Shown in pieces: positions 4,843 through 61,419 of a stretch of DNA of 64,000 bases (position 1 is its first letter; each line of letters begins with the position of its first letter). The notes under the pieces were generated by a model. It searched no databases. It saw only the letters and a program-made list of their open reading frames with translations, and was not told the origin of the DNA. Both the position numbers and the translations under genes were made by a program. Source of the DNA: Cloeon dipterum (taxonomy: Eukaryota; Arthropoda; Insecta; Ephemeroptera; Baetidae); contig NC_088787.1 of the NCBI RefSeq assembly GCF_949628265.1, positions 9,352,501 to 9,416,500 of the forward strand. Direction: 5' to 3'.

Positions 4843-5005
4843 TTGACGTTTATTGAGTTAGGACTTTACACCAATAATCTTTACTTCTCTTTTGCACATG
4901 AGGAAATGCTAAAAACAATGCTATTAAATTATTGGGATTAATAGCAGATTTATTTAATTTAGACCTTCTATATAAGAGTTTATATGTATTAATTGTGATA
5001 TATCC

Positions 5006-5011
5006 AATAAA
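5006..5011 (+). terminator. Polyadenylation signal of PARG copy 1
   Basis: An AATAAA hexamer lies 164 bases after the stop codon in AT-rich DNA, a suitable place for 3' end formation. No other gene feature is nearby. Confidence 0.5.
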
Positions 5012-38034: not shown

Positions 38035-38096
<62 letters not shown>

Positions 38097-41000
38097 CGAG
38101 TGGCTCAATTAACTGAAGCGCTCTCATCTCGTGCAGAGAGGACGTGATTGATTCGCAATCAAGCACATTAGCATGCCGCTGCACTCATGCACTCAAAATA
38201 ATGTGCACGGGATTATTGGCTACGCTCTACACACCGGCCGGTACGAGGCAATGACAAATCGCACAATATGCCCTCGAGCGCACAAACAAGTGCTAAATCC
38301 GCGGGACCGTTTTCCGTGCATGACCGAACACACGAGCCGGGAATTAGAGAGATGAAATGTGCCTGTTTTTTTTAAAAGCACTCAGACGACGCACTTTGTT
38401 GCAGACGCGCGCGGTCCATAATTGCTAGACACGCCTAATTTTGCAACTTTTTAGCACATTGATAAACCAGCAAATTATTTACGACAAATAATGTCATGGA
38501 TTTTAGAGGACAAAAATTAGGAAAACCTCACAATAAAACTTTGATTGCGTCATAAATTTTCGGATTTTATCAGCGGGGGCCAGTTGTGCGATAAAATTGG
38601 TTCGCACTGCGATGATCCAAGATGGCGTCTGAATGTTAGAAACAAAAAGCTCTCTTTGGATTGCCGTACGAGTCTCAAGAGCTTGTTTTTACGATCCAAA
38701 AGACACAATTAGTGCAAGAAATGCAAATTACGTCACAATATTGACGAAAACTCGGTTCTTTTCGCGTATTTTACGTGACCGTTTTTTCGCGCCATTCTCC
38801 ACCTGACGCCATATCTGCGCGTCGCAAGAATCTGGCCCCCGCTGGATTTTATGGGACAATTTTGGAAAACATTCAGTATATCATCTCATCTAAAAGAAGC
38901 GCAATTTCAAAATTAGAGGTGTGCTCTATATTCCTCTTTTGCTAAGCTAACACCAATTTTGATGTCCTAGGTCAAGGTCAAAGGTCACTGCTGTTAATTT
39001 TCGTTTCCAGATAAAATTTTGGAATGTAATGAAATTTTTATCTGTTCAACTTCCTCTACCCAAACGTAGAATAAAATAATCGCATCACATTGGGAAGAGA
39101 AAAAATTAGATTAGACACAAAATAAAAATATAATGGTGCTTAATCGGGGCTCTAAAAATGGATGGGCGAAGTCAAAATTGCTTCCTTTGTTTTTAATCCG
39201 GAAAGCGTGTCCGGCGCTGCCGTAATAATGAGCCCCGCGAACGAGAGATAAGCGCAGAGCAGCTAAATTGCATTGTTGGTCAAGGACGGGGCGCTGAAGA
39301 GAGGCCCAGGCCACGAGGAGAATCGAACGCGAACGCCTTCGCTCTTCTTGTCGAATGTACGAATGGGAGCAGATGAGAGCCCAATAAAGGCGCATAAACA
39401 GCGCGCGGGGTCGGCCGCCAACAAAACGGGCCCAGAGCACAGCTGATACAACACACACTCACTCTCATTCTAATATGCATCCTCGGGGTTGGACACTTTA
39501 TTCAAATCAACTGAGCCGTTAAGCATGAGCCATTGAATAAGTTCTTCTGTAAAAAAATTCCAGTAGTGAGAAACGGAAGATTTAATACCTAATATCATGC
39601 AAAAAGTATTAAAAATTTACACATTTTTTACCAGCACCAAGTTAGATCAGCTATTGAGTATTTTACAAAGTTTCTCTTCATTAAAGCGGTGAAGCTTAGT
39701 CAGTTTTTTAATCAAAAGACTTTTTGGTCCGAAATATTTGGTTTTATATTCACATTAGTGCGATCGTTCACGTAGACGCAGATTTTTTAATAAATTAAAT
39801 TTTGAATTTATCGCGTGCTTTATTAAATTGCCACCGCCTGACGCTGCACTAAAATTGCCAATTTGTAAAGTTAAAAGAGTTTGTTTCGGATACATACAAC
39901 TATTGAAAACAGATTAATTGTTGGAATTAAATTATTTGGTGTTTAAAAATATTTTTATACATAATTAAGAATAATCAGGGAATCTCCCAAAAAAGGATTT
40001 TGAATTGCAACATAATTTTTAAGTCCTTCAATTGAGGGGATATTAAATATTTTTTACCATTGATATTAATTCAATAATTTTGATAGCATTTAGAATGAAA
40101 TGATTGTGCAAGGTTTTTTACTTAAAAATAACTCTATTAAGAAAAAAAAATATATTTTAAATTTTTATTTTCTTTCATTATTAATAACATTCAATAAACA
40201 AAAGTCTAAAAATTCAAATGAAAGTTTAATTTAATAAAAGAAAAATTATTGTAACTTAAAAACACGAACAAAAAGCGTTTTTGAGCTTGTTTAAATTTTT
40301 ATTTTATCTTCACACAAACCATCATTATAACACTTTGCAAGGTAAGTACTGTGTTTAACACTGTTTTGTTAATTTCAAGGGTTGCGGTTCAAATATAGCT
40401 GACAATTGCATAATTCGTGGTTCTGTGAAGATTGGAAGCTTAGAAAATATTCAACCATCTAAATATTCAGCCGCTCTACTTCTCACTAACAAAAAATCGG
40501 GTTTGAAATGCTCAACCCAGAAGCAGTATATAAATTTGTCCCTAGCGACTCCTGCACAATGATTTTGATTTATTGCCGTGCTGTGTGTTGATTTAATTTT
40601 ACGACCATGTGCATGCACTACGCGGTGGCGGCGGCACACTCCTAAATCAACTGCTGGGGAATTATTACTTATTACATTTAACTCCCTATTAATATCCCGC
40701 GAACAGCAGCAACAGCAGTTGTTGGAGCTCGCGTTCTGCAGGCTCGGTGGTTTGCTCTATATTATAATGCGCGTGTTGTACATCATTTTTTGTAGTTTCC
40801 GCTTTGATTGCTGCCCAAACACGTGTGCGTTACATCAACTGGAAATCGTTTGTTATGGCTGTGAATGAAAAATAAATACATAGATAAACGAATTTTAATC
40901 TCTTTCAAACACTAAAAATGTTTAAAAGGGTTTGGATTTTATTTTGTCAGATGCCTTTTTATCAGGAAGCATTGCCCAAAATTAGGATTGGGGATTTTAT

Positions 41001-44000
41001 TTGTTTTTCGGTAAATACGTTCAATATTGGGACAAAAATAGTTGAATTTATATCGGGTTTTCGGTTAAAATAGTTGTCCTCTGAGATGAAAATGGAGACA
41101 TTGATTATTTTTAGTGTTTTAGTAAATACCAATTTCTTTTAAACAAAAAAACAATAATAGAACAATTGACGAGCTGTTTAAACCCTTGTTGTTTGAAGCT
41201 GCCAACAGATGGCGCCACCGTATACTTTCGTTTTAAGGCACTTCCACTAAGATTTCAGACTTAATCCTGCTACTGTGAATTCTTCACTTAATATGCTTTC
41301 TTTTGATATGCTTAAAACCAAAATCAGTCCAGCCATTCGCCGTAGAATCGTTGGAAAATATTTTTTATTTAAAACAATAGCTGATTCTACGGCGATTGGC
41401 TGAACCGATTTTGGTTTTCAGCATATTAAGTGAAGAATGCACAGCGGATAGATTTAGTCTGAAATCGTAGCGGAAGTGCCTTGAAGCTAAATTTTTTAGA
41501 ACATCTATGGTTCCGTCATCTGTTGGCGGCTTCTGACACTAGGGATTTATTCAACTGGTCAATTAAAAATAGTAACAAAAATTAAGCTAATGTATGTATT
41601 TTTGTAACATATCTTGTCTAGACAGCGAGACTTCTGATAAATTAAGTTTTTAAGTGTGTTGAAAATTACAAAGGACAAAAAAATTAAATTAAAGACTTTG
41701 ATTCCAAGTATTAAATTTCCTCCTGAGCAATATTGTTAACAGGTTGAAAAGAAATCAAAGTTTTAGGGTAAATCTTGTCAATTTAAGCCAAAAATAAAGT
41801 TTGAGATTTAATTAGGATCAGTTTTTTCTCATGACATTTCTTACCTGCAAAAAATGCTTAGAAAAAAATCTATGAACCAAAATAAAAATTTACAAGAATA
41901 AATATATAAGTGATTTTGAAACAATTTGTCCCTTTCAAATGAATTTAAAAGTAAAATTATTTCCGTGGATTTCAGGCCAAGAGTACAATTTCAACAAGTT
42001 GACGTCTGAGGAGGTGAACTCCTTGGGTTTGAGCTACGACTACGACTCCATCATGCACTATTCCAGAAACACATTTTCCAAGGTACGTTTTTCCTTGTTA
42101 ATTTATGAAAATTTTGTCTTAAATTTTGCGCCAAACAGGGCTCCTATTTGGACACAATCCTGCCTTTTGAGCAGCTGGCGTCGAAAAAGCGACCTGAGAT
42201 CGGACAGCGCATCAAACTGAGTGACGGAGACATAGCTCAAACCAATTTGCTCTACAAGTGTCCAAGTAAGTGTCAAAAATATTTCAATTTTCTAAAAGAT
42301 GAATTTTAAATTTTTGTAGAGTGCGGGAGGACGCTTCAAGACAGCTCAGGGTCAATCCAATCGCCCCAATTCGGCACCCTGGAGCCGTCAGACCTGCCAG
42401 AAAAGTGCGAGTGGCGCATCACAGCCACGCATGGCGAGCGAATTGTGCTGAACATCACGGAAATTGACGTGCCTGAATCGGACGACTGCACCAGGGACTT
42501 CATTGAGATCAGGGATGGCTACTGGCACAAGTCACCGCTCATTGGTCAGTCTCCCGATTTTATTAATTAATACCAACGTAAAATTTATAAATTTATAATA
42601 CAGAATAGCTGAAAACTAATTAAAGGAGAAATAAAATTCAAATTATTAATCATAACAGCCGGAATAATCGAGTAAAATTTAAATTTAATTGGCTGCCGTT
42701 GACAGCAAAATACTGTCAATCAAATTTCCACTAAATCTTTTGAATGCGAAAAATCAAAAGATCTCACAAGCAAGAATTTATATATTTTTATCAGCGGGGT
42801 CCAGATGTGCGATAAAATTGGTTCGCACTGCGCAGATCCAAGATGGCGTCTGAATGTGGGAAGCAAAAATCTCTCTTTGGATTGCCGTACGAGCAGTGTC
42901 AAGAGTTTGTTTTTACGATCCTAAAGACACAATTAGTACAAGTAATGCAAATTACACGTTACAATTTTGACGAAAACTTGGTTCTTTTCGCGCATTTTCA
43001 CGTGACCGTTTTTTCGCGCCATACTCCACCAGACGCCATATCTGCGCGTCGCACGAATCTGGCTCCCGTTGTATTTTTATTTTTAAAATCCAAATAAAAA
43101 AATTGATCTTGAATAATTAAATTTGTCTATCCCAAATATCAACATAAAAGCAAATACAAATTTTCAGATTTTTTTGTAACCTTTTTGAAAACTATTTTTT
43201 TTTCAGGCAAGTATTGTGGCAGCCAGCCTCACCCAACGACGATCAAGTCGTCGGGAAGCAGGATGCTCGTCACCTACAGAACGTCGGGCAGACTCGGCGG
43301 ACAGGGCTTCCAGGCGTATTACGAAGGTACAATTTTTTGCTCTCTCCTTTTTCTAAACACATTATCATGCTCAAGACACTCTTCAGCAATTGTTGACTGT
43401 AGCGAGATTAAATCTCATTACTGACAAACTCCTCTTCTGCATCCTGTCAATTGTTTTTATCAGCTCAAGTTCATTGACTTGCACTCGTAAACTCGTGATC
43501 TGGATTTGCTGAGCAACATTTTCAGTAGAATAAAAAAATTGGCAAATTGAGACCTAAATTCACAAAATAAATTATTTTTAAAAATTTGTTGAACTATGCC
43601 ATAATTTCCCTAATCTAAATAAATTTTATAGTAAATAAATGTTCTGATGTATTTCATGCCCAAAAATTTGTGTTAATAAAAAAATAAATTAAATATTATG
43701 GATGAATTTTTTAATAAAATAAAATTTTAAAATTATTTTCTCATTTTGGTCCAATTTAATTTTAGCTGTCTGTGGTGGTGACTTCGAGATGGACAAAGGA
43801 CACCTAGAGTCTCCAAACTACCCGGATGACTACCCTGCCCGTAAGGAGTGCGTGTGGCGCATCACGGTCGAGGAAAACTATCAAGTGGCGCTCAAGTTCC
43901 AGTCGTTTGAGGCAAGTCTTTCAATATTTTTAGGAAACGACTGCTCGGCGGCGAGCTCAAATTAGCTTTCGAGGGGATGCAGGGAAGAGGGTGAACCATC

Positions 44001-47000
44001 CCTCTGCAGCAATTTCCTCTTCTCGGCTGCTCCTTCCTCCACTCCAACCGCCGGCAAAATAGAAAATTTATTTTCGGTCACCTGCTCTGCGCTTTATCAA
44101 TTTTCCTCGTTCTTGTTCTCTCTCTCTCTCTCGCTTCGGCAAAGTTGCGATATGACAATTAATTGCAGAGAGTGTAATTATAAAAATGTAATCAGAGCAA
44201 ACCCGGCGACGACGACAGTTACAAGTCGCTCTCTTGTGTTGTGCAGCGCGGCTTGAGCCTGGTCTGGTGATAAGGCACCAACTATACTATAACACTCGTC
44301 GCTCGAGAGAAGAGAGAGAGGTTTACCTCTTCAGCCTACATGGTCTGTCGTCGATACATAAAAGCCTGCTGCCTTGTGCTTGTCGCACTCGGCTTGTTTT
44401 CTGTCTACAAGATGACGATACACCCCGTGGAGCAAATTTTCCTTCCTTAAAGGTGTCTCGCCAGTTTTCAAATTAATTAAGAAAAATGTCCTTTTTCCGT
44501 GCAATTAAATTGTAAATTATTCTTTCCCCGTGAAAAACTGCAACGGTTTCAAAATTATTGTGTTGAAACTTTTCTAATTCCTGAAGTGTTTGAAAAACTA
44601 TGGAATTTTGCGAGAATTTTTAATATTGAGAAGAAAATCACAGAATATTCGCATTTTAACGAATTAGTTTTTTGGTCGTAAGTATTAACTAGAAAATAGT
44701 TAGTTAATAAAATCCTGAATCAAAATATTGGGCCATCCAGCTTCAAAGAATATGTTTTTAAATCATTTTCATCAATGCTTCACTTTCTCTCGTTTTATTT
44801 TTTTTTTTAATTTGAAGGGCCTTAAACCAGATGCAAACCCTCTGTTATATTTTCATCTCTTTGATGTAGGCAGCATTATACAAAAAAGCACGAAAAGCTT
44901 TGAAGCAGAGTGCGCGCGACTCTTATTTCTTTTAGTAATTTACACCAGTAAGTGTGAAAACTGCTACTGCACGACAATGAGTTTATTTTAAAAATATTAA
45001 ATAAATCTACAAACTTAAGTTTACTCTAATAACAAATTACTTCATCAGGTTGTTGTAGGCGAGGAGTGTGAATATGTGACTTTGAACCTATTGGATAGAT
45101 AATAGCAACAAATATATTTAAAGAGGATTAATACTGCAAAATTCTAGAAAATTCAGCGGGGTCCAGATGTGCGATAAAATTGGTTCCCACTGCGCAGATC
45201 CAAGATGGCGTGTGAATGTAGGAAACAAAAAGCTCTCTTTGGATTGCCGTACGAGTGTCAAGAGTTTGTTTTTACGATCCAAAGGGCACAATTAGTACAA
45301 GTAATGCAAATTATGTCACAATATTGACGAAAATTTTCTTTTCGCGCATTTTCACGTGACCGTTTTATCGCGCCATACGCCACCGGACGCCATATCTGCG
45401 CTTCGCACGAATCTGGCCCCCGCTGGGAAAATGCTTGTTTGCCATAGGATTCAGTTGAAGCCAAAATTGACCTAAGAAGTACTTAAATTTTTGAGAAAAT
45501 TGGCTACAAAGTTAGAATGCTTTTTAAATGGTGAGGACTGTCTCCTTACTTGAAATCTTATTTTATTCCACAACAAAAAGAGTTACTCTAAAAGATTATA
45601 TACGCCTTTGGACAGATCTAGACGAGAGGAATCGAAATCTGCCAAGAAAATGTGGTCAAGCGCTGTAAATTTTGGATAAAATTTGAAAAATTTGAATTTT
45701 CACTGAAGCAAAAGGTCCAAATTCTTTATCGATCAACAACTGCTATTGCATCCAAAAATCCTAATTATTTTAAAATTGTTGCCCTGTTTAAATATTCACC
45801 TTGCTTTTCTTCTCCTACAGACGGAAAAGCACGACAACTGCGTGTACGACTACCTGGAAGTACGCGACGGCCACTTTGAGAACGCGACGCTGCTGGGCAA
45901 AATCTGCGGTCACGAGACGCCCTCAGAGATGCTGTCCACCGGAAACAAGATGTGGATCAAGTTCGTCTCGGACTCGTCAATTCAAAAGGGTGGCTTTTCC
46001 GCCAGCTTCATGAAAGGTCCGTCTCGAGAGTTTTCCTCCACTCTATATTTTTTTTCTTGAGTTTGCGAGAAGTGTGCTTGACGCGAGTTTTTCCGTCTGC
46101 AGAGTTCGACGAGTGCGCGTCGGCCAACGGCCACGATTGCGAGCAGGAATGCGTCAACACCCTCGGAAGCTACTACTGCGCCTGCAAAATAGGCTACGAG
46201 CTGCACTCGGACGGCAAGCACTGCATCGGTATGATGAATTGATGCACTACTTTGTGCCAGACTCTTTTATTTCGCATTGTTTGCAGACGCGTGCGGAGGC
46301 CTGTACGCCGTGGCCAACGGGACAATTACCAGCCCCAGTTTTCCGGCCTTTTATCCCGGCAACAAGCACTGCTTGTGGGAAATTCACGCACCAACGCAAT
46401 ATAAAATTACCCTCAACTTCACCTTCTTTGACCTGGAAGGAAACAACGTGAGTATATATGGAGCGAATTGGGGCGAACTGCTCGCCGCATGTGGGACACG
46501 TGTATTATTTCTTTGCAAAACTGTGTCACTGCAGGTGGATAAAAATGATTTTTTTTGTTTGCAAACTGATGCTATAGACGCCATTGTTACATTTGCATTA
46601 TTTATCATTGTAAAAACAAAAATTGAATTTGAATAAGTAGTAAGACAAGGACAAGCTCTCGTAAACTCTCAGCTGATATTAAAAAATGTTATAATTGAAA
46701 AAACAACATCCAGTTTTCTCTCTTCAGAATTATATTCATTTTTATTACATCAAAATGCAAAGGTTAATTAATTTTTATAAGAAAGCTCATTCATTCTAGC
46801 TCTATAATCTTTTTCACTTTAATTAAATGATGCACATATATTTGATTTTATATGGTTTTTATAATAAAAAAATGTTTTTTTTAGTACGAATTTTCTGCTT
46901 TATCGTTTTATTAAAAAAACTGAAAACTATATTGGGATAAATGGGATAAAATGAGCCAAGTTTTCTATTTCTACGTTCTTTATTAAACATTGAGAGTAAT

Positions 47001-49152
47001 ATGGATACAAATAAGATGCGCTAAAAATTGCTTACCATATATATATCTATGATTTTTTGTATTTCAGCAAAGATTTCAGCGTCACAAATTGAATTTTTTC
47101 AATTATTCATCGAGAATTTCAAATGTCTTGAACTCTACATTAATTCAATGACTCTGTCTAATGTGGATTTTGATCGTTTTTAGCATGACTGTGAATACGA
47201 CAACGTTGAAGTGCAGAGCATTCACTTGTACAACGTGGCCAGGACCCACGGTGTTTACTGCGGCTCGTCTTTGCCTGAAATGATCACTTCCGAGACAAAT
47301 AAAATGCGCATTGAATTCTCAACCGATAACTCGGTGCAGAAGACGGGTTTCGCGGCAGTTTTCTTCACAGGTAATTAATTTCCGCAATTCATTTTTTACT
47401 CATACACTGAATCTATGATTCTAATTTAATTTTTTCATTTATATATCCGAAAAATTGACGTTTTAATTATTATCTTCTTATAAAAATCAGTTATTTCACA
47501 AGGAAAACTCAATTTTAATCTTTAGACATCGATGAGTGCACGGAGCAAAACGGCGGGTGTCAGCACGAGTGCAAAAACACAGTGGGCTCATACGAGTGCA
47601 GCTGCTACAACGGCTTTACGTTGCATGAGGACATGCACAGCTGTAAGGAAGGCGGCTGCAAACACGAGATTGACGCTCCCAGCGGCAACATCCACAGTCC
47701 AAACTACCCTGAGTACTACCCTAATAAGAAGGACTGCGTGTGGAAATTCTCCACCACACCTGGGCACAGAATCAAGCTGGTAATGAAAATGAATAAATGA
47801 ATTGACGATTTAAAATTATTGCCTTACACACAAAACTATTTTATTTACTTTAAATCGTTGGTTTGTTCTGTATCAAAAGTAAATATTGAAAACAAAATAA
47901 ATAATTTTTAAGCAATTGCATTCTGGTTTAAACACTGTTTTGTTATCATATTTTTTATACTCGAATTTTAGTAAAATAAAAAATTATCATTTTATATTTA
48001 ACTCACAGGAGATAAAAAAATCTACAAAATGGATACACACTTAGAACGCTAAGTAGCTTTAATCTAAATATAATTTTTTTGTTAACAAATTGTGAAAATC
48101 CTATTAAATATGATTCTTCTTGTAGGTCTTCAAAGAATTCGAGTTGGAGTCGCACCAAGAGTGTACCTACGACAACATCGCCTTCTACGACGGCCCTGGC
48201 GAAGACTCCCTCTCCCTTGGTCGGTTCTGCGGCTCCAAACTACCGCACCCCATCGTAGCCAGCACAAATGAACTCTACATGGTGTTCAAATCGGACGCCT
48301 CTGTCCAGAGAAAGGGATTCTTGGCTGAGCACTCCACTGGTCAGTTTCAAATTTTTTTATTATTCTTTTTTACTTGTTATTTTCATTTTGAATTTTAATT
48401 TCAGTGTGTGGAGGAATTTTAACGGCGTCGAGCCAAGTACAGCACCTGTACTCGCACACCAAGTACGGCGACCAGGACTACGACAACGCGGCCGACTGCG
48501 AGTGGACCGTCCTTGCGCCCTCGGGACACGTAGTCCTCCTCAAATTCATCACTTTCCAGCTGGAGGCCGAGAACGAGTGCACCTACGACTGGGTGCAGGT
48601 CCTTATTGGAGAAGATATGAGCCCTCTCACCGATAAACTATGCGGGGACCAAGTAAGAAATCATAAATTATGAAAAATAGTTAAACTGGAACAGAACTGG
48701 TCCAAATTAAAATATTTTCAATCAGTGAAACAGGTCATAGAATGATACAGAAAATAAAAAAGAATTGGATGCAATTATTTAAACTTATATACGCTTTATT
48801 TCTTGACTAATTTGGTCATTATAATTAATACCAAACTAAAAGAAATAGTTTTATTTTCCAAATGTAAAGCAAAAATATTATTAAGAACAATATTAGCTAT
48901 TTTATTTTCTTGAGTTCCTCATTCCTGATTTAATTTTTTGTATTAAATCCACCAAAAATGTTCTCCATCATGATATTTTATTCATTTGACGATCTGGAAA
49001 TGAATTTAAAAATTCTTTATGTATTTCAGAAACCTCCCGACACGTACTCGATGGGCGAGGAGCTGATTCTGCGCTTCAGGACTGACGACTCGATGGTGTC
49101 CAAGGGTTTCTCCGCCTCGTACCAAGCCGTCCGCGATAGCTTCATCGACTGA
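15645..49152 (+). CDS. tld: Tolloid/BMP1-family metalloprotease, full length
   Basis: Predicted 998-residue secreted astacin protease. Members cleave chordin/Sog-type BMP antagonists and procollagens. Exons: 15645-15780, 30833-31043, 36623-36859, 37007-37185, 41976-42082, 42139-42265, 42320-42544, 43207-43326, 43766-43911, 45821-46016, 46103-46228, 46287-46447, 47184-47370, 47526-47779, 48126-48339, 48405-48652, 49030-49152; every junction is in phase. Order: signal peptide (about 1-18), His/Lys-rich prodomain, basic cleavage site ending QKR at 127-129, protease from 130 with [13 protein letters not shown] at 224-236 and Met-turn SIMHY at 279-283, CUB1 from 334, CUB2 from 450, EGF1 from 562, CUB3 from 606, EGF2 from 720, CUB4 from 764, CUB5 from 877. 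Both EGF domains have six cysteines and the Asp/Asn-hydroxylation consensus. Intron 9 has a GC donor at 43912. Whether it is tolloid or tolkin by descent cannot be settled here. Confidence 0.95.
16185..16520 (+). repeat. Degenerate tandem duplication in tolloid intron 1
   Basis: A segment starting near 16204 (TTTTGCTTCAATCGATTGTT, then a GAGGGTTTTTCC-like stretch, a TTCA-rich stretch and TCCGT) recurs in altered form near 16408, about 205 bases later. Both end in a stretch resembling GTCCGT...TTTGCTCT. This looks like an old local duplication; its function is unknown. Confidence 0.4.
19784..20136 (-). repeat. Dispersed repeat R, inverted copy in tolloid intron 1
   Basis: The reverse complement matches the ZDHHC6-intron copy over the CTGTCTCCTTACTTGAAATCC block, the TCGACGAGAGGAATCGAAATC block and the AAATGTGGTCAAGCGCTGG block. 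A related but more diverged stretch precedes it at about 19520-19735. Confidence 0.75.
21105..21320 (+). repeat. Diverged relative of repeat R
   Basis: Resembles the stretch at 19520-19735: both have AAGTTTGCA-, AATCATGAT-TTTC-CCAGAA and TAGATC-CGAT blocks in the same order. Both show weaker likeness to the middle of repeat R. They are probably old members of the same family. Confidence 0.45.
21765..21965 (+). repeat. Dispersed repeat R, partial diverged copy
   Basis: Contains GTGGCTGCAAAGT, GACTGTCTCCCTTCTTGAA, GATAGATCTG, GAGAGGAA and AAGAAAATGCGGTCAAACGC in the same order as the full copies, with many differences. Neither end of the repeat is present. Confidence 0.6.
26000..26065 (+). repeat. 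Fragment of repeat R (5' part only)
   Basis: TGCTGCAAAATCCTGG and CTTGTTGCCATTGCATAAA match the first 60 bases of the full copies; similarity then stops. Confidence 0.45.
26385..26653 (+). mobile_element. hAT-type MITE, copy 3
   Basis: About 269 bp in tolloid intron 1, beginning CAGCGGGGTCCAGAT and ending ATCTGGACCCCGATG (one change from the usual CTG end). It is flanked by a perfect 8-bp duplication, ATTATCTA, at 26377-26384 and 26654-26661. Confidence 0.88.
27378..28030 (-). repeat. Dispersed repeat R, inverted copy split by a MITE
   Basis: The reverse complement carries the TAAAGAGGATTAATACTGCA start at the right end, the GACTGTCTCTTTACTTGAAA block and the TCGACGAGAGGAA block. It is interrupted at 27518-27792 by MITE copy 4, which landed inside the AAATTTGCCAAG-like region. 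The repeat is therefore older than the MITE. Confidence 0.75.
27518..27792 (-). mobile_element. hAT-type MITE, copy 4 (nested in repeat R)
   Basis: About 275 bp, starting CAGCGGGGGCTAGATTC and ending GCTCCCGCTG. It is flanked by a perfect 8-bp duplication, CTTTGCAT, at 27510-27517 and 27793-27800. It is inserted within an older dispersed repeat. Confidence 0.88.
31897..32158 (-). mobile_element. hAT-type MITE, copy 5
   Basis: About 262 bp, starting CAGCGGGGGCCAGATTC and ending GGTACCCGCTG. The flanking octamers (ATCTGTAT and AACTGCAC) agree at only five of eight positions, so the target duplication is decayed. A small internal deletion relative to other copies removes part of the GATGGCGTC block. 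Confidence 0.8.
33252..33685 (+). repeat. Dispersed repeat R, most complete copy
   Basis: Runs from TTAAAGAGGAATGATACTGC to a tail with ATCCAACAATTTAAATAAA and TTGTTGCCCAGTATCA. It is uninterrupted, so it is the best single reference for the family. It has no open frame and no evident terminal inverted repeats. Confidence 0.75.
35119..35383 (-). mobile_element. hAT-type MITE, copy 6
   Basis: About 265 bp, starting CAGTGGGGTCCGGATTC and ending CTGGCCCCCGCTG. It is flanked by a perfect 8-bp duplication, AATTTAAT, at 35111-35118 and 35384-35391. Confidence 0.88.
38039..38094 (+). repeat. (AG)n microsatellite
   Basis: About 27 uninterrupted AG units, preceded by imperfect GAGAG sequence from 38024. 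It sits at the start of a GC-richer island. GAGA-type tracts bind GAGA factor in flies; whether this one does is unknown. Confidence 0.95.
38571..38844 (+). mobile_element. hAT-type MITE, copy 7
   Basis: About 274 bp, starting CAGCGGGGGCCAGTTGTG and ending TCTGGCCCCCGCTG. It is flanked by a perfect 8-bp duplication, GATTTTAT, at 38563-38570 and 38845-38852. Confidence 0.9.
41181..41547. mobile_element. Long foldback (inverted-repeat) element in tolloid intron 4
   Basis: About 365 bp made of two arms of roughly 160 bases that are imperfect reverse complements around a short AT-rich centre near 41360-41380. Matching blocks include GCCAACAGATG with CATCTGTTGGCGGC, GGCACTTCCAC with GGAAGTGCCTT, TTCTTCACTTAATATGC with GCATATTAAGTGAAGAA, and ATTCGCCGTAGAATC with GATTCTACGGCGATT. 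It has no coding capacity. The target duplication is unclear. Confidence 0.8.
42792..43071 (+). mobile_element. hAT-type MITE, copy 8
   Basis: About 280 bp in tolloid intron 7, between the two CUB1 exons. It starts CAGCGGGGTCCAGATGTG and ends CTCCCGTTG. TATTTTTAT occurs on both sides (42783-42791 and 43072-43080), consistent with an 8-bp duplication extended by one chance match. Confidence 0.86.
45119..45790 (+). repeat. Dispersed repeat R split by a MITE, adjoining a tolloid exon
   Basis: Starts AAAGAGGATTAATACTGCAA, is interrupted at 45154-45425 by MITE copy 9, then continues with GGAAAATGCTTG, GACTGTCTCCTTACTTGAAA and AAAATGTGGTCAAGCGCTG. Its tail ends about 30 bases before the acceptor of the exon at 45821, so repeat DNA lies close to the 3' splice site. 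Confidence 0.75.
45154..45425 (+). mobile_element. hAT-type MITE, copy 9 (nested in repeat R)
   Basis: About 272 bp, starting CAGCGGGGTCCAGATGTG and ending CTGGCCCCCGCTG. The flanks AGAAAATT and GGAAAATG agree at six of eight positions. Comparison with the uninterrupted repeat R (CTGGAAAATGCTTG) shows that GGAAAATG was the duplicated target. Confidence 0.86.
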
Positions 49153-50600: not shown

Positions 50601-50636
50601 AAGAAAGAGTGACTGTAGACAGCGGAGACTTTCATC

Positions 50637-50725
50637 AGCGAGCACAACGTGGTCCACGAGCAACCCCTAGAGACACATCATGTGGTGTGTGCTGACCGCT
50701 TTGGCCGTGCAGATGTCCGACACGT
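50637..50725 (+). pseudogene. Relic of the tolloid-type promoter/exon-1 module
   Basis: GCACAACGTGGTCCACGAGC, followed at 50680 by an ATG and then GTGTGCTGACCGCTTTGGCC, matches the intact signal-peptide exon of the paralogues at 50890-51005. Several internal bases are deleted, and GTGCAG then runs into unrelated sequence. No usable signal peptide or donor remains. It lies 240 bases upstream of the intact exon. Confidence 0.65.
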
Positions 50726-50964
50726 TGAGACGGAATAGGAAGAGATTACGATGAACGCAAAGAAGCTAATTCTAACAGTGGAGCATTGAAAGACGGTGCT
50801 GCCGCTGAGGGATTGCAATGCAAATCGGCGGTTCAGAGAGCAGGCAACGCGCGAGTTGCATAGTAGTCGAGTCGGCGGTGTCTGTCGTTAGCGAGCGCAC
50901 AACGTGGTCCACAAGACACCCACCCAGTTCTCCAGACATGGGTCTGTACAGCAGAGGAGATAGC

Positions 50965-53900
50965 ATGAGGTCTGTGCTGACCACTTTGGCCCTGCTGGCC
51001 GTGCAGGTGGCCGCCGCGTCGAGCGACTATTCTGTCTATTCCACGGAGCAGACCATTTGTATGGACAACGACTTCGAATCGTACAGTAAATCTATTTTTT
51101 TAAATCATCTCTATATAAGGAAGTTTAAAATTTTCATCAAATTTCCAAAGTTGAGGGAGAGTAAATAATTTCACTAAAATATATAAATTAAATATCAGCA
51201 ACTTGAAGAGATTGAAATATCGATGAAATGAAAAAATAACACCTATTGCCAATATAGTTTTGAAATCGAGTCTATATGTAAAATGCTTTTTCACCGGCAG
51301 AATTCAACGCATTTTTTTGTTGCTTCTCACTCTCTGAATTTTGTCTTGCATAAATTTTTATCCCCTAAACCAATCACGTGTTTTTTTTATTTTCTATAAG
51401 AATAACAATATCTTTTTGAGGAAAAGAAGAAGGTTAATTATTTTTTATTGTAGCAGTTGACGGGATATCAGGGGGTTGTGGTGAAACATATCAAAGGAAA
51501 AGTCATCAGACGCTGCATATCCTATAGGGATTGGCTGTTTGCGTCTTGCGGATATATGATACAGGGGATCGTGTATTTGCAGTTCGCACAGGAAGAAGGC
51601 TGATTTTACAACCATATAGCTTGTGCTTATTTTCGTGTTATGTTTTGCTGATTAAGTGTGGAGTGTGGGACCACATAAGGAAAGGAAGATTCGACTTGTC
51701 ACTGCATCCGAGAACAGCTTCCACTTTATTTTGTAACTTGCTTTCCTCATCCGATTAACTTATTGGTAAAAATAAAGCAAAGCCAATTTTATGCATGAAC
51801 GGTAATATTCTTATGTAGCGACCGCTCGCCGCGCCTTTGGTCTGCATAGGCGCGCATTGGGGCAGATTATAGGTTCACGACAAATGGTTCCTTATCTGTT
51901 TTCTGTAATTTTTATTCTAATGCAAATTCAAATCAATCCGCAGCTTTCTGCGGTGGCAACTTTGAGATGGACAAAGGGTACATAGAGTCCCCGAGCTTCC
52001 AGGAGGACTACCACCCTGCCCAAGTGTTGTGTGTGTGGCGCATCATGGTGAAGAAAAACTTTCAAGTCGGGCTCAAATTTCATTCGTTTAAGGCGAGTTA
52101 TTTAATATTTTTAATGAACTGGTGACTCGCTAAGCTCTACCAAATGCATTTTTGCTAATAAAAATAACGTACCCTCGATTTTAATGCAGATGGAAAGGAA
52201 CGACAACTGCCTGAATGACTATTTGGAAGTTCACGACGGCCACTTAGAGAACTCGACGCTGCTAGGAACGTTCTGCGGTTACGATCTTCCCCTAGAGATG
52301 AGGTCTACTGGAAACCAGATGTCGATAAAGTTTGTTTCAAACTCATTGATCCAAAGGAGCGGCTTTTCCGCCAGCTTCACGAAAGGTTGATTTCAAGAAT
52401 TTTTTTCCATTGAATTCACGAATTTTACCGTCTGTAGATATTAACGAGTGCGAATCAACCAATAACTGCGAGCAGGAATGCATCAACACCATCGGCAGCT
52501 ACTACTGCGCCTGCAATGTAGGCTACGAGCTGCACTCTGACGGCAAGCGCTGCATCGGTATATACATATGCGATTTACTTCCAAATGTTTCGGTCGTTTT
52601 GATTTATGTACATTGTTTGCAGGCGCCTGCGGAGGCCTGTACGCCTCAGCCAACGGAACAATTACCAGCCCTGGTTTTCCAAACCTTTACCCCAACTCAC
52701 AGTACTGTTTGTGGGAAATCCACGCACCAGCGCAAAATAAAATTACCCTCAGATTTACGTTTTTTCAACTGGAGGGAAACCACGTGTGTTGCCTTTTTGC
52801 CAAAATAAGCATTAGCACTAAAAATATTATTTTCTGATTTTAGCTCGACAAAGTCGAGGTGCAGAGTGTTCACCCATGCAACGTGACTAGCACCCACGGC
52901 GTTTACAGTGGCACGTCCGTACCTCGGTTGATCATTTCCAAGACAAACAAAATGCGCATTAAATTCTCAACGAATCGCTCCGTGCAGAGGAAAGGTTTTG
53001 CGGCTAGTTTTTTCACAGGTAACACGACTGCATACGCTTTAATTTTTGGTTCGCTTCTGTTGATCTCACGAGAAGATTTGACGTGCGACTCTTTGGTCTG
53101 CCCACTGACCTGAGAGGCGCCATGACCAGGTGCCTGGGCCGACAGCCGACAAGTAAAAATCCGCTTGATGTACCTAAATTGGCTTTCCTTTCGAAAGCGT
53201 GAGACGAGCAATGTTTAAGTTTAACCTAGTTGTTAGTGCCTTTAGCGTATGAATTGTCTGTATAGCGACCGGCAGCCGCGCCTTGGGTCTCTGAAAATAA
53301 ATCAATTTAAAAAAACCCAGCCAAGTTGTTAAATTTAAGAAGCAGAAGAGATTATATGGATCGAGTAATGCTTATTTTTATTTTTAGACATTGATGAGTG
53401 CTTGAAGCAAAATGGTGGGTGTCAGCAGGAATGTAAAAATACGGTTGGCTCGTATGAGTGCAGGTGCAAGAACGGCTTCACGCTGGATGATGACATGCGT
53501 ACCTGCAACGAGCAGGGTGACTGCAAACACTTGATCGACACTCCCAACGGCACCATCCACAGCCCAAACTACCCTGAGTACTTGCCTTACAATCGCAAAA
53601 AGAGGGAATGCGTTTGGAAGTTTTCCACAAAGTCTGGACATAGAATTAAATTGGTGAGTTTAAATACATAAATGAGATTTAAGTTTTAAATCCGAAAATA
53701 AAGTTTTCCGAAGAACATGCAAAGTGGAATGCCAGTTCTTTATGAAAGAAATTTCGACTATTCTACAACTGCTATTGCTGGCTAATCGCATTTAACTTTT
53801 TTTCTTTTTTCTTTTCATTTTATTTATAAAACATTCTAAAACTCATTGATAATTCTTGTAGAACTTCAAAAAAATCGAGATTAATTGCACCTACAGCAAC

Positions 53901-54855
53901 ATCATCATCTACGACGGCCCTGGCGAGGTCTCGACCTCCCTTGGCAGTTTCTGCGGCTCCAATCTACCGCCCCACATAATAGCCAGTGCAAATGATCTCT
54001 ACATGGTGTTGAGGTCGAACGCCTCAGTCCAGACTGGAGGGTTTTGGGCCGAGCACTCCACTAGTAAGATCTTTGTAGAATTCCTTCTTGGTTCCCAATT
54101 AACACTAAATCGAAATTCATTTAAAACTTTTACCAAATGTTTTGATGGAACTATGTAGAACTATGAAAACTCGATGAATCCTTAACTTTGGCCTTGGATC
54201 AAATTTTGACTTGTTTCAAGGAACATTTTTGCTATTTTTGCACTTAATTATGGTCAGTTAATCCTGCTTTATTTGCCATTTTTCCATACAATTTCAGTTT
54301 GTGGGGGAAATTTTACGGCGTCGAACCAAGTGCATTACCTGTACTCGCACGACAGTTACGGTGACCAGGACTACAAAAACATGGTAAACTGTGAGTGGAA
54401 CATTGTTGCCCCCGTCGGAGACGTGGTCCTTCTCAAGTTCATCACCTTCCGACTGGAAAAGAGCCACGATTGGGTGCAGGTCTTTGACGGCAAGATCAGG
54501 CAACCTCTCACCGAAAAATTCAACGGAACTCATGTGAGTATAATTTTACAATTTATTGATAATATGAGAACGAGGCTCCTTTTCTGAAAAGGAAATTTTT
54601 ATTTAGTCCCTTATGATTCTCACGTTTCAGTTTTTAATTAATATACAAACGTAAGCACAATTCAAAGAATACTTTAAAAAATTCCAATGTGAATAAGAGA
54701 TTATGCAGACCTGATTTTTCCTCTTATTATAGAAACCTCCCAAAACATACTCAAGAGGCGAGGAGCTGTTGCTGTGCTTCAGGACTGACGGCTCGGACGT
54801 ATTCAATGGTTTCTCCGCCTCGTACCAAGCCGTCCACAAGAGTTTCTTCTATTGA
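50965..54855 (+). CDS. Secreted protease-less tolloid paralogue A (CUB/EGF only)
   Basis: Predicted 582 residues. Exons: 50965-51085, 51944-52092, 52190-52385, 52438-52557, 52623-52783, 52844-53018, 53388-53653, 53862-54063, 54298-54533, 54733-54855; all junctions in phase. A signal peptide like tolloid's ([18 protein letters not shown]) is followed by a 22-residue linker, then CUB2 from residue 43, EGF1 from 156, CUB3 from 196, EGF2 from 308, CUB4, and CUB5 from 464. Prodomain, HELGH protease and CUB1 are missing, so it cannot be a protease. Intron positions and phases match tolloid, including a GC donor at 52093, so it arose by DNA duplication plus internal loss. EGF1 and EGF2 keep six cysteines. 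CUB3 and CUB5 have each lost both cysteines of the second disulfide. No stop or frameshift is present. Role unknown; binding of tolloid substrates without cleavage is a guess. The ATG at 50965 is chosen for the signal peptide, though the frame stays open upstream to 50818. Confidence 0.85.
51470..51630 (+). pseudogene. Possible decayed CUB1 exon in paralogue A intron 1
   Basis: After an acceptor-like TTGTAGCAG, one frame reads CGETYQ, like the CGRTLQ that opens tolloid CUB1, and stops at a TAG near 51531. A neighbouring frame continues with ISYRDW and SCGY, faintly like IEIRDGYW and KYCGS of CUB1. If real, it is a broken exon left from loss of the protease/CUB1 region. The likeness is weak and could be chance. 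The same sequence lies in paralogue B at about 57597-57737. Confidence 0.25.
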
Positions 54856-54967
54856 TTGCGCATCCATTTGACTAACAAAATTAAATGGCCACAAACAGAT
54901 ATCTTCATTAAATAAGTGAGAGCTGGTCCTGAAATCAGATCGATAGTTTTTATCATCTTTACACAGA

Positions 54968-54973
54968 AATAAA
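54968..54973 (+). terminator. Polyadenylation signal of paralogue A
   Basis: An AATAAA 113 bases past the stop codon, in AT-rich sequence. The equivalent site in paralogue B is altered. Confidence 0.45.
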
Positions 54974-55540
54974 TCCAAAAGCATGAAATTAAAATTTACT
55001 GAATCAGTTTTTAGGAAAAGTAAAATACCGCTTAGCTACAATGCACAGCGGCTATTTTGGCTTTGCAGGCCTCATCTGCGGTACTTTACCTCCAAAACGA
55101 CAATTTTAATTTTTAATTTTCTCTGAATAAATTTCATATTATTGAACCACTAACAAAAAAGTTGATTGTTTTTATTATCAACCCAAAGGGTAACTTTAAT
55201 TTTACTCCTCTATTATTTCGATAAAATTAGATCAAATAGATTGTTTTATAATTTGTGTGGGAAGCAAAAGAAAATATGATTAAAAAATCTCTATCGCTCA
55301 CTTTCGCCAGGTCGAAATAAAATCCAATGTTAAAAATTTTATCTAAAGATATCCAAATAGAGAGACAATAATTTACTTTTTAACCACCTCCGCTTGACAT
55401 TTTGCACAATGTATTTCGAAGATATTATTCATATTTTTTTTAATAAAAGGCATTTGGACTTAATGAATTAATTTACATTAATCGAATTCAACAAAGGGTT
55501 TTGAGTAAAAATGAAACATTTCTTTTACAACAATGTAATG
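54974..55540 (+). other. 3' flank of the duplicated unit
   Basis: Matches 61535-62098 downstream of paralogue B with scattered differences and small gaps. The match ends abruptly after ACAACAATGTAATGT, which marks the right edge of the tandem duplication. No gene is seen. Confidence 0.65.
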
Positions 55541-56260
55541 TCGAGCCGAGGGATTCGGCGAGAGGTGCCGTCCAGGGAACCGTACCGCGGCTCTTCGCCA
55601 AAGGTACGTGGTAGTTTAGGCGCCTATTTGGAGCCGGATTGATCAACCGTCCTTCATGATATTGGAACCGACACCCGTTCCGGAGAAGCGTCGGCGACTG
55701 CCTGAACGGAACGGAGCAGCCTCGACTGCCCGAGGGGAAGAAGGTGCGGCCACATCGAGCCAAGTGACGAGGAGGCTTGAGACCCCCGCCGAGTTCTCCG
55801 GCGGCTTGGCATCGAACCGGCCCGCACCCGTGCAGAGATATTCACCGCCGAATTCTGATCCAGGGTGAGAGCGCACAGCCAGGACCAGAGACGGGACGAA
55901 GAGACAAAGGGCAGCCGCGGCACATCGACGAGCAGCGGAAGGGCATCGCAGCTCGCCGAGAAAACTGAAATCATCAGCCATAAAATTGTGTGCTGCGAAC
56001 CAATAAACACCCTTGCCTCTTACACGCCAGGCGAATTCTTGCTTTTCCCGTTTTCTCTTCACTATTTGCCCTGCTCCACGCCTTTTGGTATTAGATTTTA
56101 ATTGTTGTCTATCAGCGGACAGATTCAGCGGCGGGGTTTTGAGTCTGCAGACTGAATTTGTCATGACCATCGAGGTGTTCAATTGCCGGCTTACTTCCTT
56201 CCAACACATCCAGCGGTGGAGGAGGGAAATCGTCATTTAGGGACAACAGGCCGCAGCAAT
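55541..56260. other. GC-rich segment of unknown origin between the two paralogues
   Basis: About 700 bases, far richer in G+C than their surroundings. They begin exactly where homology between the two duplicated units ends and have no counterpart after paralogue B. Open frames of 70 codons (+, 55656-55868) and 197 codons (minus, 55643-56236) exist, but neither shows a domain I recognise. It could be part of a transposable element or foreign filler at the duplication junction. Confidence 0.45.
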
Positions 56261-56474
56261 GAGATCTGTATAGTTCTCAAAATAATCCACGAAATATAAA
56301 ATCAAATTAACCGCAAAAAATCGACAAAATGGTATACTACCATGTTTTCAACGATTCTATATTAGTTGAGAAAAAAATTGGTGAGAGTAGTTTCGAAGGT
56401 TTCGCTAAAAATTAGCAAAAACTCAAACAATCCATGTCACACCCCGAGTCTATTGATCTTCTTTAAAAGCTCAT

Positions 56475-56735
56475 CCCCTACTTTTAATGCATGAAAATTA
56501 CCTTTTGGGACATAGATGAGAAAAGATTACGAAGAACACAAAGTAATAAGAGCATCTGACAAAATGATTGGTAAGTCGGTGCTGCTGAAGGGCAAATCGG
56601 TGGGTCAGAAAGCAGGCGACGAGCGGCAGTCGGCGGTGTCTGTCGCAAGCGGTCTAGAAGACACCCAACTCGTTTTAGACACACGGGTCTGCACAGAATA
56701 GGTGATAGCATGCGGTCTGTAATGACCACGTTGAA
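56475..56735 (+). pseudogene. Second relic of the promoter/exon-1 module
   Basis: Contains TTTTGGGACATAGATGAGAA, GCGGCAGTCGGCGGTGTCTG, ACACGGGTCTGCACAGAA and then, at 56710, ATGCGGTCTGTAATGACC. These blocks appear in the same order as in the intact module at 56843-57120. The hydrophobic core codons are lost and no donor follows, so it is a dead copy. Confidence 0.7.
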
Positions 56736-57090
56736 CATAAAATCGGTGCGAATTTCGAGGTTGTTAAAAAATTTGCAAACACTGTCAAATATCAAAAGTC
56801 ACGCACTAAAAGCTCCCCTGTAGTACTTCTAATGCATGGAAATTACATTTTTGGGACATTTATAAAAAGAGATTACGATGAACGCAAAGAAGTTAATTCT
56901 AACTGTGAGCATTGAAAGACGGTGCTGCCGCTGAGGGATTGCAATGCAAATCGGCGGTTCAGAGAGCAGGCAACGCGCGAGTTGCATAGTAGTCGAGTCG
57001 GCGGTGTCTGTCGTTAGCGAGCGCACAACGTGGTCCACAAGACACCCACCCAGTTCTCCAGACACGGGTCTGTGCAGCAGAGGAGATAGC

Positions 57091-60000
57091 ATGAGGTCTG
57101 TGCTGACCGCTTTGGCCCTGCTGGCCGTGCAGGTGGCCGCAGCGTCGACCGACTATTCTGCCTATTCCACTACTGAGCAGACCATCTGTATGGACAACGA
57201 CTTCGAATCGTATAGTAAATCTATTTTTTAAATCATATCTCTATATAAGGAAGTTTAAAATTTTCATCAAATTTCCAAAGTTGAGGGAGAGTAAATAATT
57301 TCACTAAAATATATAAATTAAATATCAGCAACTTGAAGAGATTGAAATATCGATGAAATGAAAAAATAACACCTATTGCCAATATAGTTTTGAAATTGAG
57401 TATATATGTAAAATGGTTATTCATCGGCAGAATTCAACGCATTTTTTTGTTGCTTCTCACTCTCTGAATTTTGTCTTGCAAAAATTTTTATCCTCTAAAC
57501 CCTAAACCAATTACGTGTGTTTTTTTTCTAAAAGAATAACAATATCTTTTTAAGGAAAAGCAAAGGTTAATTATTTTTTATTGTAGCAGTCTCCGGGATA
57601 TCAGGGGGTTGTGGTGAAACATATCAAAGGAAAAGTCATCAGACGCTGCATATCCTATAGGGATTGGCTGTTTGCGTCTTGCGGATATATGATACAGGGG
57701 ATTGTGTATTTGCAGTTCGCACAGGAAGAAGGCTGATTTTACAACCATATAGCTTGTGCTTATTTTCGTGTTATGTTTTGCTGATTAAGTGTGGAGTGTG
57801 GGACCACATAAGGAAAGGGGAGATTCGACTTGTCACTGCATCCGAGAACAGCTTCCACTTTATTTTGTAACTTTCTTTCCTCATCCGATTAACTTATTGG
57901 TAAAAATAGAGCAAAGCCAATTTTATGCATGAACGGTAATATTCTTATGTAGCGACCGATCGCCGCGCCTTTGGTCTGCATAGGCGCGCATTGGGGCAGA
58001 TTATAGGTTCACGACAAATGGTTCCTTATCTGTTTTCTGTAATTTTTATTCTAATGCAAATTCAAATCAATCCGCAGCTTTCTGCGGTGGCAACTTTGAG
58101 ATGGACAAAGGGTACATAGAGTCCCCGAGCTTCCAGGAGGACTACCACCCTGCCCAAGTGTTGTGTGTGTGGCGCATCATGGTGAAGAAAAACTTTCAAG
58201 TCGGGCTCAAATTTCATTCGTTTAAGGCGAGTTATTTAATATTTTTAATGAACTGGTGACTCGCTAAGCTCTACCAAATGCATTTTTGCTAATAAAAATA
58301 ACGTACCCTCGATTTTAATGCAGATGGAAAGGAACGACAACTGCCTGAATGACTATTTGGAAGTTCACGACGGCCACTTAGAGAACTCGACGCTGCTAGG
58401 AACGTTCTGCGGTTACGATCTTCCCCTAGAGATGAGGTCTACTGGAAACCAGATGTCGATAAAGTTTGTTTCAAACTCATTGATCCAAAGGAGCGGCTTT
58501 TCCGCCAGCTTCATGAAAGGTTGATTTCAAGAATTTTTTTACAATGAATTCACGAATTTTACCGTCTGTAGATATTAACGAGTGCGAATCAACCAACAAC
58601 TGCGAGCAGGAATGCATCAACACCATCGGCAGCTACTACTGCGCCTGCAATGTAGGCTACGAGCTGCACTCTGACGGCAAGCGCTGCATCGGTATATACA
58701 TATGCGATTTACTTCCAAATGTTTCGGTCGTTTTGATTTATGTACATTGTTTGCAGGCGCCTGCGGAGGCCTGTACGCCTCAGCCAACGGAACAATTACC
58801 AGCCCTGGTTTTCCAAACCTTTACCCCAGTTTAAAGTACTGCTTGTGGGAAATCCACGCACCAGCGCAAAATAAAATTACCCTCAGATTTAACTTTTTTG
58901 AACTGGAGGGAAACAAAGTGTGTTGCCTTTTTGCCAAAATAAGCATTAGCACTAGTAATATTTTTTTCCGATTTTAGCATGACAAAGTCGAGGTGCAGAG
59001 TGTTCACCCATGCAACGTGACTAGCACCCACGGCGTTTACAGTGGCACGTCCGTACCTCGGTTGATCATTTCCAAGACAAACAAAATGCGCATTAAATTC
59101 TCAACGGATCACTCCGTGGAGAGGAAAGGTTTTGCGGCCAGTTTTTTCACAGGTAACACGACTACATACGCTTTAATTTTTGGTTCGCTTCCGTTGATCT
59201 CAATAGAAGATTTGTCGTGCGACTCTTTGGTCTGCCCACTGACCTGAGAGGAGCCATGAAGACCAGGCGCCTGGGCCGACAGCCGACAAGTCAAATTCCG
59301 CTTGATGTTCGTAAATTGGCTTTTCTTTAGAAAGCGTGAGACGAGCAATGTTTAAGTTTAACCTAGTTTTTCGCACCTTCATCGCACGAGTTGTCTGTAT
59401 TGCGACCGGCAGCCGCGCCTTGGGTCTCTGAAAAAAAATTAATTAAGAAAAACTCAGCCAAGTTGTTAAATATAAGAAGCAGAAGAGATTATATGGATCG
59501 AGTAATGCTTATTTTTATTTTCAGACATTGATGAGTGCTTGAAGCAAAATGGTGGGTGTCAGCAGGAATGTAAAAATACGGTTGGCTCGTATGAGTGCAG
59601 GTGCAAGAACGGCTTCACGCTGGATGATGACATGCGTACCTGCAACGAGCAGGGTGACTGCAAACACTTGATCGACACTCCCAACGGCACCATCCACAGC
59701 CCAAACTACCCTGAGTACTTGCCTTACAATCGCAAAAAGAGGGAATGCGTTTGGAAGTTTTCCACAAAGTCTGGACATAGAATTAAATTGGTGAGTTTAA
59801 ACAAATAAATAAAGTTATGAATTGATGCTTTTAATATGGAGGAAACATTTTTCGAAAAAAAACCGTTATAACTTTTTCGTAAAAAAGTTTTTATCTCTTA
59901 ATGCCTATTATGATCATACAAGTTTTATCGTGACTACTCATGGCAAAAAATTACAATTTTCCGAAGAACATGCAAAGTGGAATGCCAGTTCTTTTTGAAA

Positions 60001-61419
60001 GGAATTTCTACTATTCTTTTACTGCTATTGCCGGCTAATCGCATTTAACTTTTTTTCCTTTTTTCTTTTCATTTTATATGTAAAACAGTCTAAAACTCAT
60101 TGATAATCCTTGTAGAACTTCAAAAAAATCGAGATTAATTGCACCTACAGCAACATCATCATCTACGACGGCCCTGGCGAGGTCACGACCTCCCTTGGCA
60201 GTTTCTGCGGCTCCAATCTACCGCCCCCCATAATAGCCAGTGCAAATGATCTCTACATGGTGTTGAGGTCGAACGCCTCAGTCCAGACTGGAGGGTTTTG
60301 GGCCGAGCACTCCACTAGTAAGACCTAAAAGAATTTCTTGTTGTTTTCAGTAACACTAAATTGAATTTTTAATAGAACATTTGGAAAATTGGGTTGAATT
60401 TTGACACATATTTTGATAGAACTACAATTCAATGATACTTAATTTTTTTGGATTAAATTTTGTTTTCATTACCTATTGAAAAGTAATTAAGATAGTGAGT
60501 TTCATTGAACTTTTATGCTAAATTGGACTTCATTAGGGTCACTTAAACCTGCTTTCTTTACCTAGTTTCTATAAAATTTCAGTCTGTGGGGGAAATTTTA
60601 CGGCGTCAAACCGAGTGAAATACCTGTACTCGCACGACAGTTACGGTGACCAGGACTACAAAAACATGGTAAACTGTGAGTGGAACATTGTTGCCCCCAT
60701 CGGAGACGTGGTCCTTCTCAAGTTCATCACCTTCCAACTAGAGAGCAACAATAACGATTGGGTGCAGATCTTGGCCGCCGGGTCTCTCAACAAAACATTT
60801 AGCGGTAGCCGTGTAAGTAATTTTACAATTTATTGATAATATGAGAGGATGAGGCTACTTTTCTGAAAAGTCAATATTCAACAAAGCAACTACTAAATAA
60901 TAGGAAATACATTTTTTGGCTGGAATATCTGATCAGGAAAATATCAAGACTGAATTAAAACCACAAGATTTTAAGGAGTCTAGTTCAATTAAATTGAATT
61001 TAAATACCTTTAAGTCTTGTAATTTACTGAGCATTGCACGATAGAAAGCGTGATCAGCTGACATTCTCTGTATGAAATATGACGGCAGCAGATGCTTTAT
61101 TTCTATGTGAAAAACCTTCCTGCTTACAATCATAATATCGAATTCCTCCGAAATCACTTTCAAGAACAGCTACAAATTTTATTTGTGTGTGTTTTGTTAA
61201 TGCTTAAAATTGTATTTGTAAATCAAATATTTCCAATGAGTAAAGATAATGTGAAGTTGAAGTGATTGAAGACTGATTATTTTCCTCTTATTTTAGAAAC
61301 CTCCCAACACATACTCAGGAGGCGAGGAGCTGACTTTGCGGTTCAGGACTAACGGTTTGAACGTATTCAAGGGTTTCTCCGCCTCATACCAAGCCGTCCA
61401 CAAGAGTTTCTTCAATTGA
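57091..61419 (+). CDS. Secreted protease-less tolloid paralogue B (CUB/EGF only)
   Basis: Predicted 581 residues, a near twin of paralogue A with the same architecture: signal peptide, linker, CUB2, EGF1, CUB3, EGF2, CUB4, CUB5, with no protease. Exons: 57091-57214, 58078-58226, 58324-58519, 58572-58691, 58757-58917, 58978-59152, 59525-59790, 60116-60317, 60583-60812, 61297-61419; all in phase. The GC donor of the CUB2 intron (58227) is shared. Sequence is almost identical to A through EGF2/CUB4, including introns, but CUB5 differs clearly around [15 protein letters not shown]. The second-disulfide cysteines of CUB3 and CUB5 are absent here too. Reading frames are intact, and the exons differ less than the later introns, which suggests constraint or recent conversion. 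Expression is not shown by the sequence. An in-frame ATG exists upstream at 56944. Confidence 0.85.

Follow-up and report, generated by a model that had tools for sequence, protein, structure and literature searches.

What does the substrate-binding half of a tolloid gene become once the protease is gone? This question is raised by a locus of the mayfly Cloeon dipterum, in which an intact tolloid gene is followed by two genes, here called A and B, that combine a tolloid-type signal-peptide exon with tolloid CUB and EGF domains and have no protease. The stretch that was analyzed (the window) comprises 64,000 nucleotides, positions 9352501-9416500 of contig C2 (NC_088787.1), in a genome of 190.1 Mb and 10 contigs. 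Our favored reading, to which we give a probability of about 0.4, is that A and B are functional, protein-coding tolloid paralogues and that their products would act as co-secreted, non-catalytic modulators of tolloid.

The intact gene (15645..49152, plus strand) was defined from its gene model, Pfam matches, and relatives in the PDB. Its 17 coding exons encode 998 amino acids in the order signal peptide/prodomain, astacin protease, CUB1-CUB2-EGF1-CUB3-EGF2-CUB4-CUB5; Pfam detected Astacin (E 7e-72) and five CUB stretches, and the best PDB relatives are the protease domains of TLL1 and BMP1. Paralogue A (50965-54855; 10 exons, 582 amino acids) starts 1.8 kb past the tolloid stop codon and is followed by paralogue B (57091-61419; 10 exons, 581 amino acids), with all three genes on the same strand; the interval 50965-61419 opens with the start codon of A and closes with the stop codon of B. 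The splice sites of both copies were picked by homology to tolloid, and the resulting frames are open, each with a single terminal stop. All nine introns per copy have GT-AG ends except for a GC donor inside CUB2, which tolloid, A, and B have at the same place. In both copies, exon 1 is the counterpart of exon 1 of tolloid, exons 2-10 are the counterparts of its exons 9-17, and the phases agree throughout. The original prediction held that the signal exon is joined directly to the CUB2 exon with CUB2-EGF1-CUB3-EGF2-CUB4-CUB5 kept in open frames, and the gene models and Pfam bear this out. The models also confirm its proposal that the frame is kept in the absence of tolloid exons 2-8, the exon-1 donor and the CUB2 acceptor both being phase 1 in A and B. 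The description of A and B as two protease-less tolloid paralogues of secreted type, without exons 2-8 and with a phase-compatible junction, is well supported.

In A, the signal peptide is encoded by exon 1 (50965..51085, ending in phase 1), CUB2 by exons 2-3 (51944..52385, with the GC donor at 52093), EGF1 by exon 4 (52438..52557), CUB3 by exons 5-6 (52623..53018), EGF2 and CUB4 by exons 7-8 (53388..54063), and CUB5 by exons 9-10 (54298..54855, including the stop). B follows the same plan on the same strand: exon 1 with the signal peptide, also ending in phase 1 (57091..57214), exons 2-4 with CUB2 and EGF1 (58078..58691), exons 5-6 with CUB3 (58757..59152), exons 7-8 with EGF2 and CUB4 (59525..60317), and exons 9-10 with CUB5 (60583..61419). 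Besides the gene models, these assignments draw on Pfam for CUB2, EGF1, and the EGF2-CUB4 part of A, on the protein alignment for CUB3 and for CUB5 of A, and on DNA alignment for exons 7-10 of B.

Within the tolloid/BMP1 family (Drosophila tolloid and tolkin; vertebrate BMP1/mTLD, TLL1, and TLL2), A and B share the type of signal exon and the order of CUB2 to CUB5, and their CUB2-CUB5 part is 68% identical to that of the neighboring tolloid. The shared intron positions, phases, and GC donor indicate common descent. Unlike members of that family, they lack the remainder of the prodomain, the protease, and CUB1; their calcium sites are incomplete, and two of their CUB domains lack the second disulfide. 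Pfam found four CUB stretches and EGF-type domains (two EGF_CA stretches) in each copy, with no astacin domain and hence none of the HExxHxxGxxH type that marks tolloid/BMP1 proteinases. Nor is the layout that of PCPE, in which an NTR domain comes after a pair of CUB domains; no NTR was detected in A or B at E 0.001. PCPE has no EGF domains and is not known to have been cut down from a tolloid gene. Both copies do match the description of a non-catalytic CUB-EGF chain related to a protease, as in MAp44.

How the copies arose can be followed at their 5' ends. The part of A exon 1 that encodes the signal peptide resembles tolloid exon 1 over 67 bp (77.6% identity, E 3e-7 within the window), and in the alignment a block of the 5' untranslated region (UTR) is also common to tolloid, A, and B; exon 1 has diverged over its 3' half. 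Because they share both of these elements, the copies carry the 5' end of tolloid. When tolloid exons 2-8 were compared by tblastn with 49153-64000, the astacin part had no match below E 4 and the prodomain part none up to E 10; all matches better than E 4 came from the CUB1 part of the query. A protease remnant was also sought inside intron 1 of A and of B and was not found. A complete copy may have lost exons 2-8, or these exons may never have been part of the duplicate. Additional, decayed modules of 5' UTR and exon 1 lie upstream of A (50640..50760, plus strand; a single alignment, with approximate limits) and upstream of B (56592..56733, plus strand; a 70% match to the module of A).

No further close copy of A was found in the whole genome, where matches outside the locus were at E 2.9e-8 or worse among the 75 of 118 first-look candidates that were scored. 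The protease-CUB1 part of tolloid likewise has no second close match there: with all 63 candidates scored, the runner-up has 43% identity and E 1.1e-21. A well-conserved stretch of intron 1 (51440-51930) occurs in the genome only in A and B, apart from two short, weaker matches. The alignment of CUB2-CUB5 from tolloid, A, and B was also used to look for relatives in prokaryotic contigs (146 pattern stretches, 0 confirmed) and viral contigs (24, 0 confirmed), a comparison that is uninformative on other animals. Between A and B, the segment 55545-56300 has partial matches of 78-84% at four other places in the genome and is perhaps a mobile-element insertion.

The two copies resemble each other unevenly. 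They are nearly identical from the 5' flank through exon 4, introns included (intron 1, 97.3%). Exons 2, 3, 4, 7, and 8 differ at 0/149, 1/196, 1/120, 0/266, and 2/202 bases, respectively; exons 1, 5, and 6 differ at 7/121, 10/161, and 6/175 bases, and exons 9-10, the furthest diverged, at 44/350. Introns 6, 7, 8, and 9 differ at 8, 12.5, 24, and 38% of aligned bases. Exon 7 (53388-53653 in A, 59525-59790 in B) is 100% identical over 266 bp and is flanked by introns with differences of 8 and 12.5%. Because this identity extends to synonymous sites, gene conversion tracts are the likeliest cause, and much of A and B has probably been homogenized in this way. Consequently, the ratio of nonsynonymous to synonymous change (dN/dS, or omega) between A and B rests mainly on exons 1, 5, 6, 9, and 10.

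Several lines of evidence point to long protein-level constraint over most of the history of the copies. By the NG86 method, tolloid and A differ with dN 0.21 and dS 0.60, and A and B with dN 0.037 and dS 0.062. A three-taxon codon likelihood model (tolloid, A, and B; exons 2-10) put omega at 0.26 for the path that leads to tolloid (p 2e-21 for the difference from 1), a value that blends the constraint of tolloid itself with that of the copies. No stop codon interrupts either copy; a neutral stem of 0.33 substitutions per site, assumed as half of dS, would leave about 16.5 stops (probability of none 3e-8), and one of 0.06 substitutions per site gives a probability of 0.018. The lengths of 7 of the 10 exons differ between A and tolloid, in all seven cases by multiples of 3. 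All three exonic indels between A and B are multiples of 3, versus 10/36 in non-coding DNA. Exon lengths and DNA alignments provide these counts; whole-codon gaps in protein-based alignments are forced by the method and were not used. Together with the path omega and the kept splice sites, the open frames and in-frame indels would thus be signs of a protein that was maintained.

If A and B are tolloid modulators, both would be secreted by cells that also make tolloid, a co-secretion suggested by the 5' end that the three genes have in common. The chain of about 540 CUB/EGF residues would then act as a non-catalytic modulator, most likely a brake, by occupying a partner of tolloid: collagen, a BMP, or the CUB region of tolloid itself. 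Published work provides precedents. Drosophila Tolloid attaches to collagen IV through its N-terminal CUB domains and to Sog through CUB4-5 (PMC4337604); isolated Tolloid CUB pairs bind BMPs and inhibit signaling (Lee 2009, as reported in PMC4337604). Mammalian mTLD and TLL-1 form calcium-dependent dimers (PMC4988381), BMP-1 is inhibited by the CUB domains of PCPE-2 alone, apparently without binding of the active site (PMC10696041), and MAp44, a protease-less product of MASP1, is inhibitory (PMC10855846). The Tolloid CUB pairs, PCPE-2, and MAp44 make a tolloid modulator plausible. Candidate partners are encoded in the genome, with one CHRD match and eight matches to fibrillar-collagen C-propeptides at two loci.

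A number of results weigh against this reading, beginning with the CUB domains themselves. The calcium/ligand residues of C1s were placed on the tolloid CUB domains at what we take to be the equivalent positions. Reading was by eye from the alignment. The set consists of the equivalents of C1s E45, Y52, D53, and D98, with residue roles as given in PMC4222235. All four tolloid CUB domains examined (CUB2-5) have the complete canonical set, with the glutamate of CUB3 shifted by one residue, versus 0/4 in A and 0/4 in B. The last aspartate is retained in CUB3 of B and CUB5 of A, and CUB2 of the copies retains the glutamate and the first aspartate; the first aspartate may also persist in CUB3 and CUB5. 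Separate deletions of 3 or 4 residues affect the loop that bears the third cysteine and the calcium ligands in each of CUB3, CUB4, and CUB5. CUB3 and CUB5 have also lost their third and fourth cysteines as a pair, and with them the second disulfide; CUB2 and CUB4 retain this pair. In favor of the reading, all four CUB domains of A and B have their first cysteine pair, and no EGF cysteine is missing. The net charge of CUB2-CUB5 has moved from -41 in tolloid to -2 in A and -1 in B, and glycosylation sequons have increased from 3 to 9 and 8, respectively, which suggests that the ligands of tolloid itself may no longer be bound.

The recent rates are also unfavorable. A dN/dS near 1 had been named in the original prediction as a sign against function, and it is neither reached nor excluded: the path to tolloid has the low value given above, and the A and B tips have an omega of 0.71 over exons 2-10, for which 1 is possible (p 0.25). 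The tip value is significantly above that of the path, and a model with a single omega was rejected (p 0.001). Across all exons the tip omega is 0.61 (p 0.07), with 0.19 in exon 1 (p 0.03), 0.24 in exons 2-4 (p 0.33), 0.77 in CUB3 (p 0.65), and 0.78 in CUB5 (p 0.50); in exons 7-8, which have zero synonymous changes, it lies at the upper bound (p 0.36). As a result of the incomplete calcium sites and altered charge, the idea of a simple decoy for tolloid's ligands is weakened. The original prediction of a decoy or enhancer acting on tolloid substrates is still possible, with less force now that the calcium set is incomplete throughout and that CUB5 lacks a disulfide and is the part in which A and B differ most. 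Because the canonical sites are incomplete, any contact with a partner would need to involve different CUB or EGF surfaces.

Almost as likely as tolloid modulation is a new extracellular role, in which A and B are real secreted proteins outside the tolloid/BMP pathway, with a near-neutral, more glycosylated CUB/EGF scaffold that might serve, for example, in matrix, egg coat, or hemolymph. The losses just described fit this, in that the calcium/ligand set is incomplete in every CUB domain, that the loop deletions in CUB3, CUB4, and CUB5 are separate, and that cysteines were lost or kept as pairs. The change in surface composition was compared with codon simulations (2000 per model, starting from tolloid and run to the divergence of A, over ungapped columns in which charge goes from -37 to -4). 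These simulations seldom yield the sequon number of A (P 0.002-0.0055), and its charge is borderline (P 0.014-0.066, depending on the mutation model). However, when mutation is modeled as AT-rich, the shift in charge falls short of significance (P 0.06-0.07), and the simulations place all change on the copies' side. At ungapped sites, 49 changes fall on the side of the copies versus 19 on that of tolloid (Tajima chi-square 13.2, p 0.0003), with human BMP1 as the only outgroup, and the copies have probably evolved about 2.6 times faster than tolloid at such sites. Any partner in such a role is putative, and relaxed constraint could also erase sites.

Relaxed constraint is the substance of a third, rather improbable account, in which A and B were once useful and are now decaying, CUB5 first, with gene conversion masking the loss. 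The tip values for exons 2-10 and for CUB5, neither different from 1, would fit, as would the decayed exon-1 modules upstream and three extra cysteines of A without an obvious partner (positions 32, 261, and 557). However, neither copy has a stop, a frameshift, or a lost splice site, the exonic indels between them are all in frame, and the tips are short, so the power of the rate estimates is low. That A and B are alternative 3' cassettes spliced to the protease exons of tolloid is very improbable, despite the shared strand, the equal phases, and the adjoining position, because the coding sequence of tolloid ends in a stop at 49152 and is followed, still ahead of A, by polyadenylation-type signals at 50220 and 50247, and because each copy is equipped with a 5' UTR block, a start codon, and a signal peptide of its own, as well as with polyadenylation-type signals downstream.

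Returning to A and B as tolloid modulators, the closest parallels also differ from them. MAp44 and MAp19, products of MASP1 and MASP2, are likewise non-catalytic, come from CUB-EGF protease genes, and are held to be inhibitory (PMC10855846), but the protease gene itself yields them, through alternative splicing or polyadenylation, and the part they retain is N-terminal; A and B are genes in their own right and retain the C-terminal part. PCPE-1 and PCPE-2 are secreted non-catalytic CUB proteins as well and modulate BMP-1 (PMC10696041); they differ in having two CUB domains and an NTR domain. Antimorphic tolloid alleles and dominant-negative Xolloid are cases of defective tolloid that disturb BMP patterning (PMC4337604; PMC4988381), but these are mutant alleles and injected constructs, whereas A and B are fixed, separate genes. 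Among open-licence PMC titles and the opening lines of abstracts on tolloid truncation, duplication, and dominant-negative forms, no protease-less tolloid paralogue gene was described, although one may be in print elsewhere. A more specific proposal, which we consider possible though unlikely, is that a tandem tolloid copy lost its protease exons and became a genome-encoded tolloid antagonist, now a gene-converted pair, that would set the dose of tolloid as an invertebrate counterpart of MAp44 or PCPE-2.

Elsewhere in the window, exons of PARG_cat_C (poly(ADP-ribose) glycohydrolase) occur in two places within 3562-7463 (E 2e-42 and 4e-45), as if from two tandem PARG-type genes, and a DHHC palmitoyltransferase exon lies at 11830-12120 (E 3e-27). 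A dispersed repeat of about 280 bp is present in nine copies on both strands between 1395 and 45425 (79-91% identity), seven of them within tolloid introns. About 144 kb upstream of the window, several astacin-type matches in succession at C2:9162397-9208222 look like a tandem cluster, and on another contig C3:2776574-2779273 has four homeodomain matches within one open frame of 2040 amino acids. Genome-wide, all 101 homeodomain matches fall on contigs C1-C5, and COX1 gave one weak match, below the cut-off.

The activity of tolloid sets BMP gradients and matrix assembly, and the cited papers approach its CUB/EGF part with deletions, point mutants, and constructs. Two tolloid genes that naturally lack the protease and have become fixed would reveal what this part can do alone. 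Either way, the outcome would be informative: A and B may be an evolved inhibitor, or they may be a CUB/EGF scaffold that was re-used after its calcium/ligand sites had been erased.

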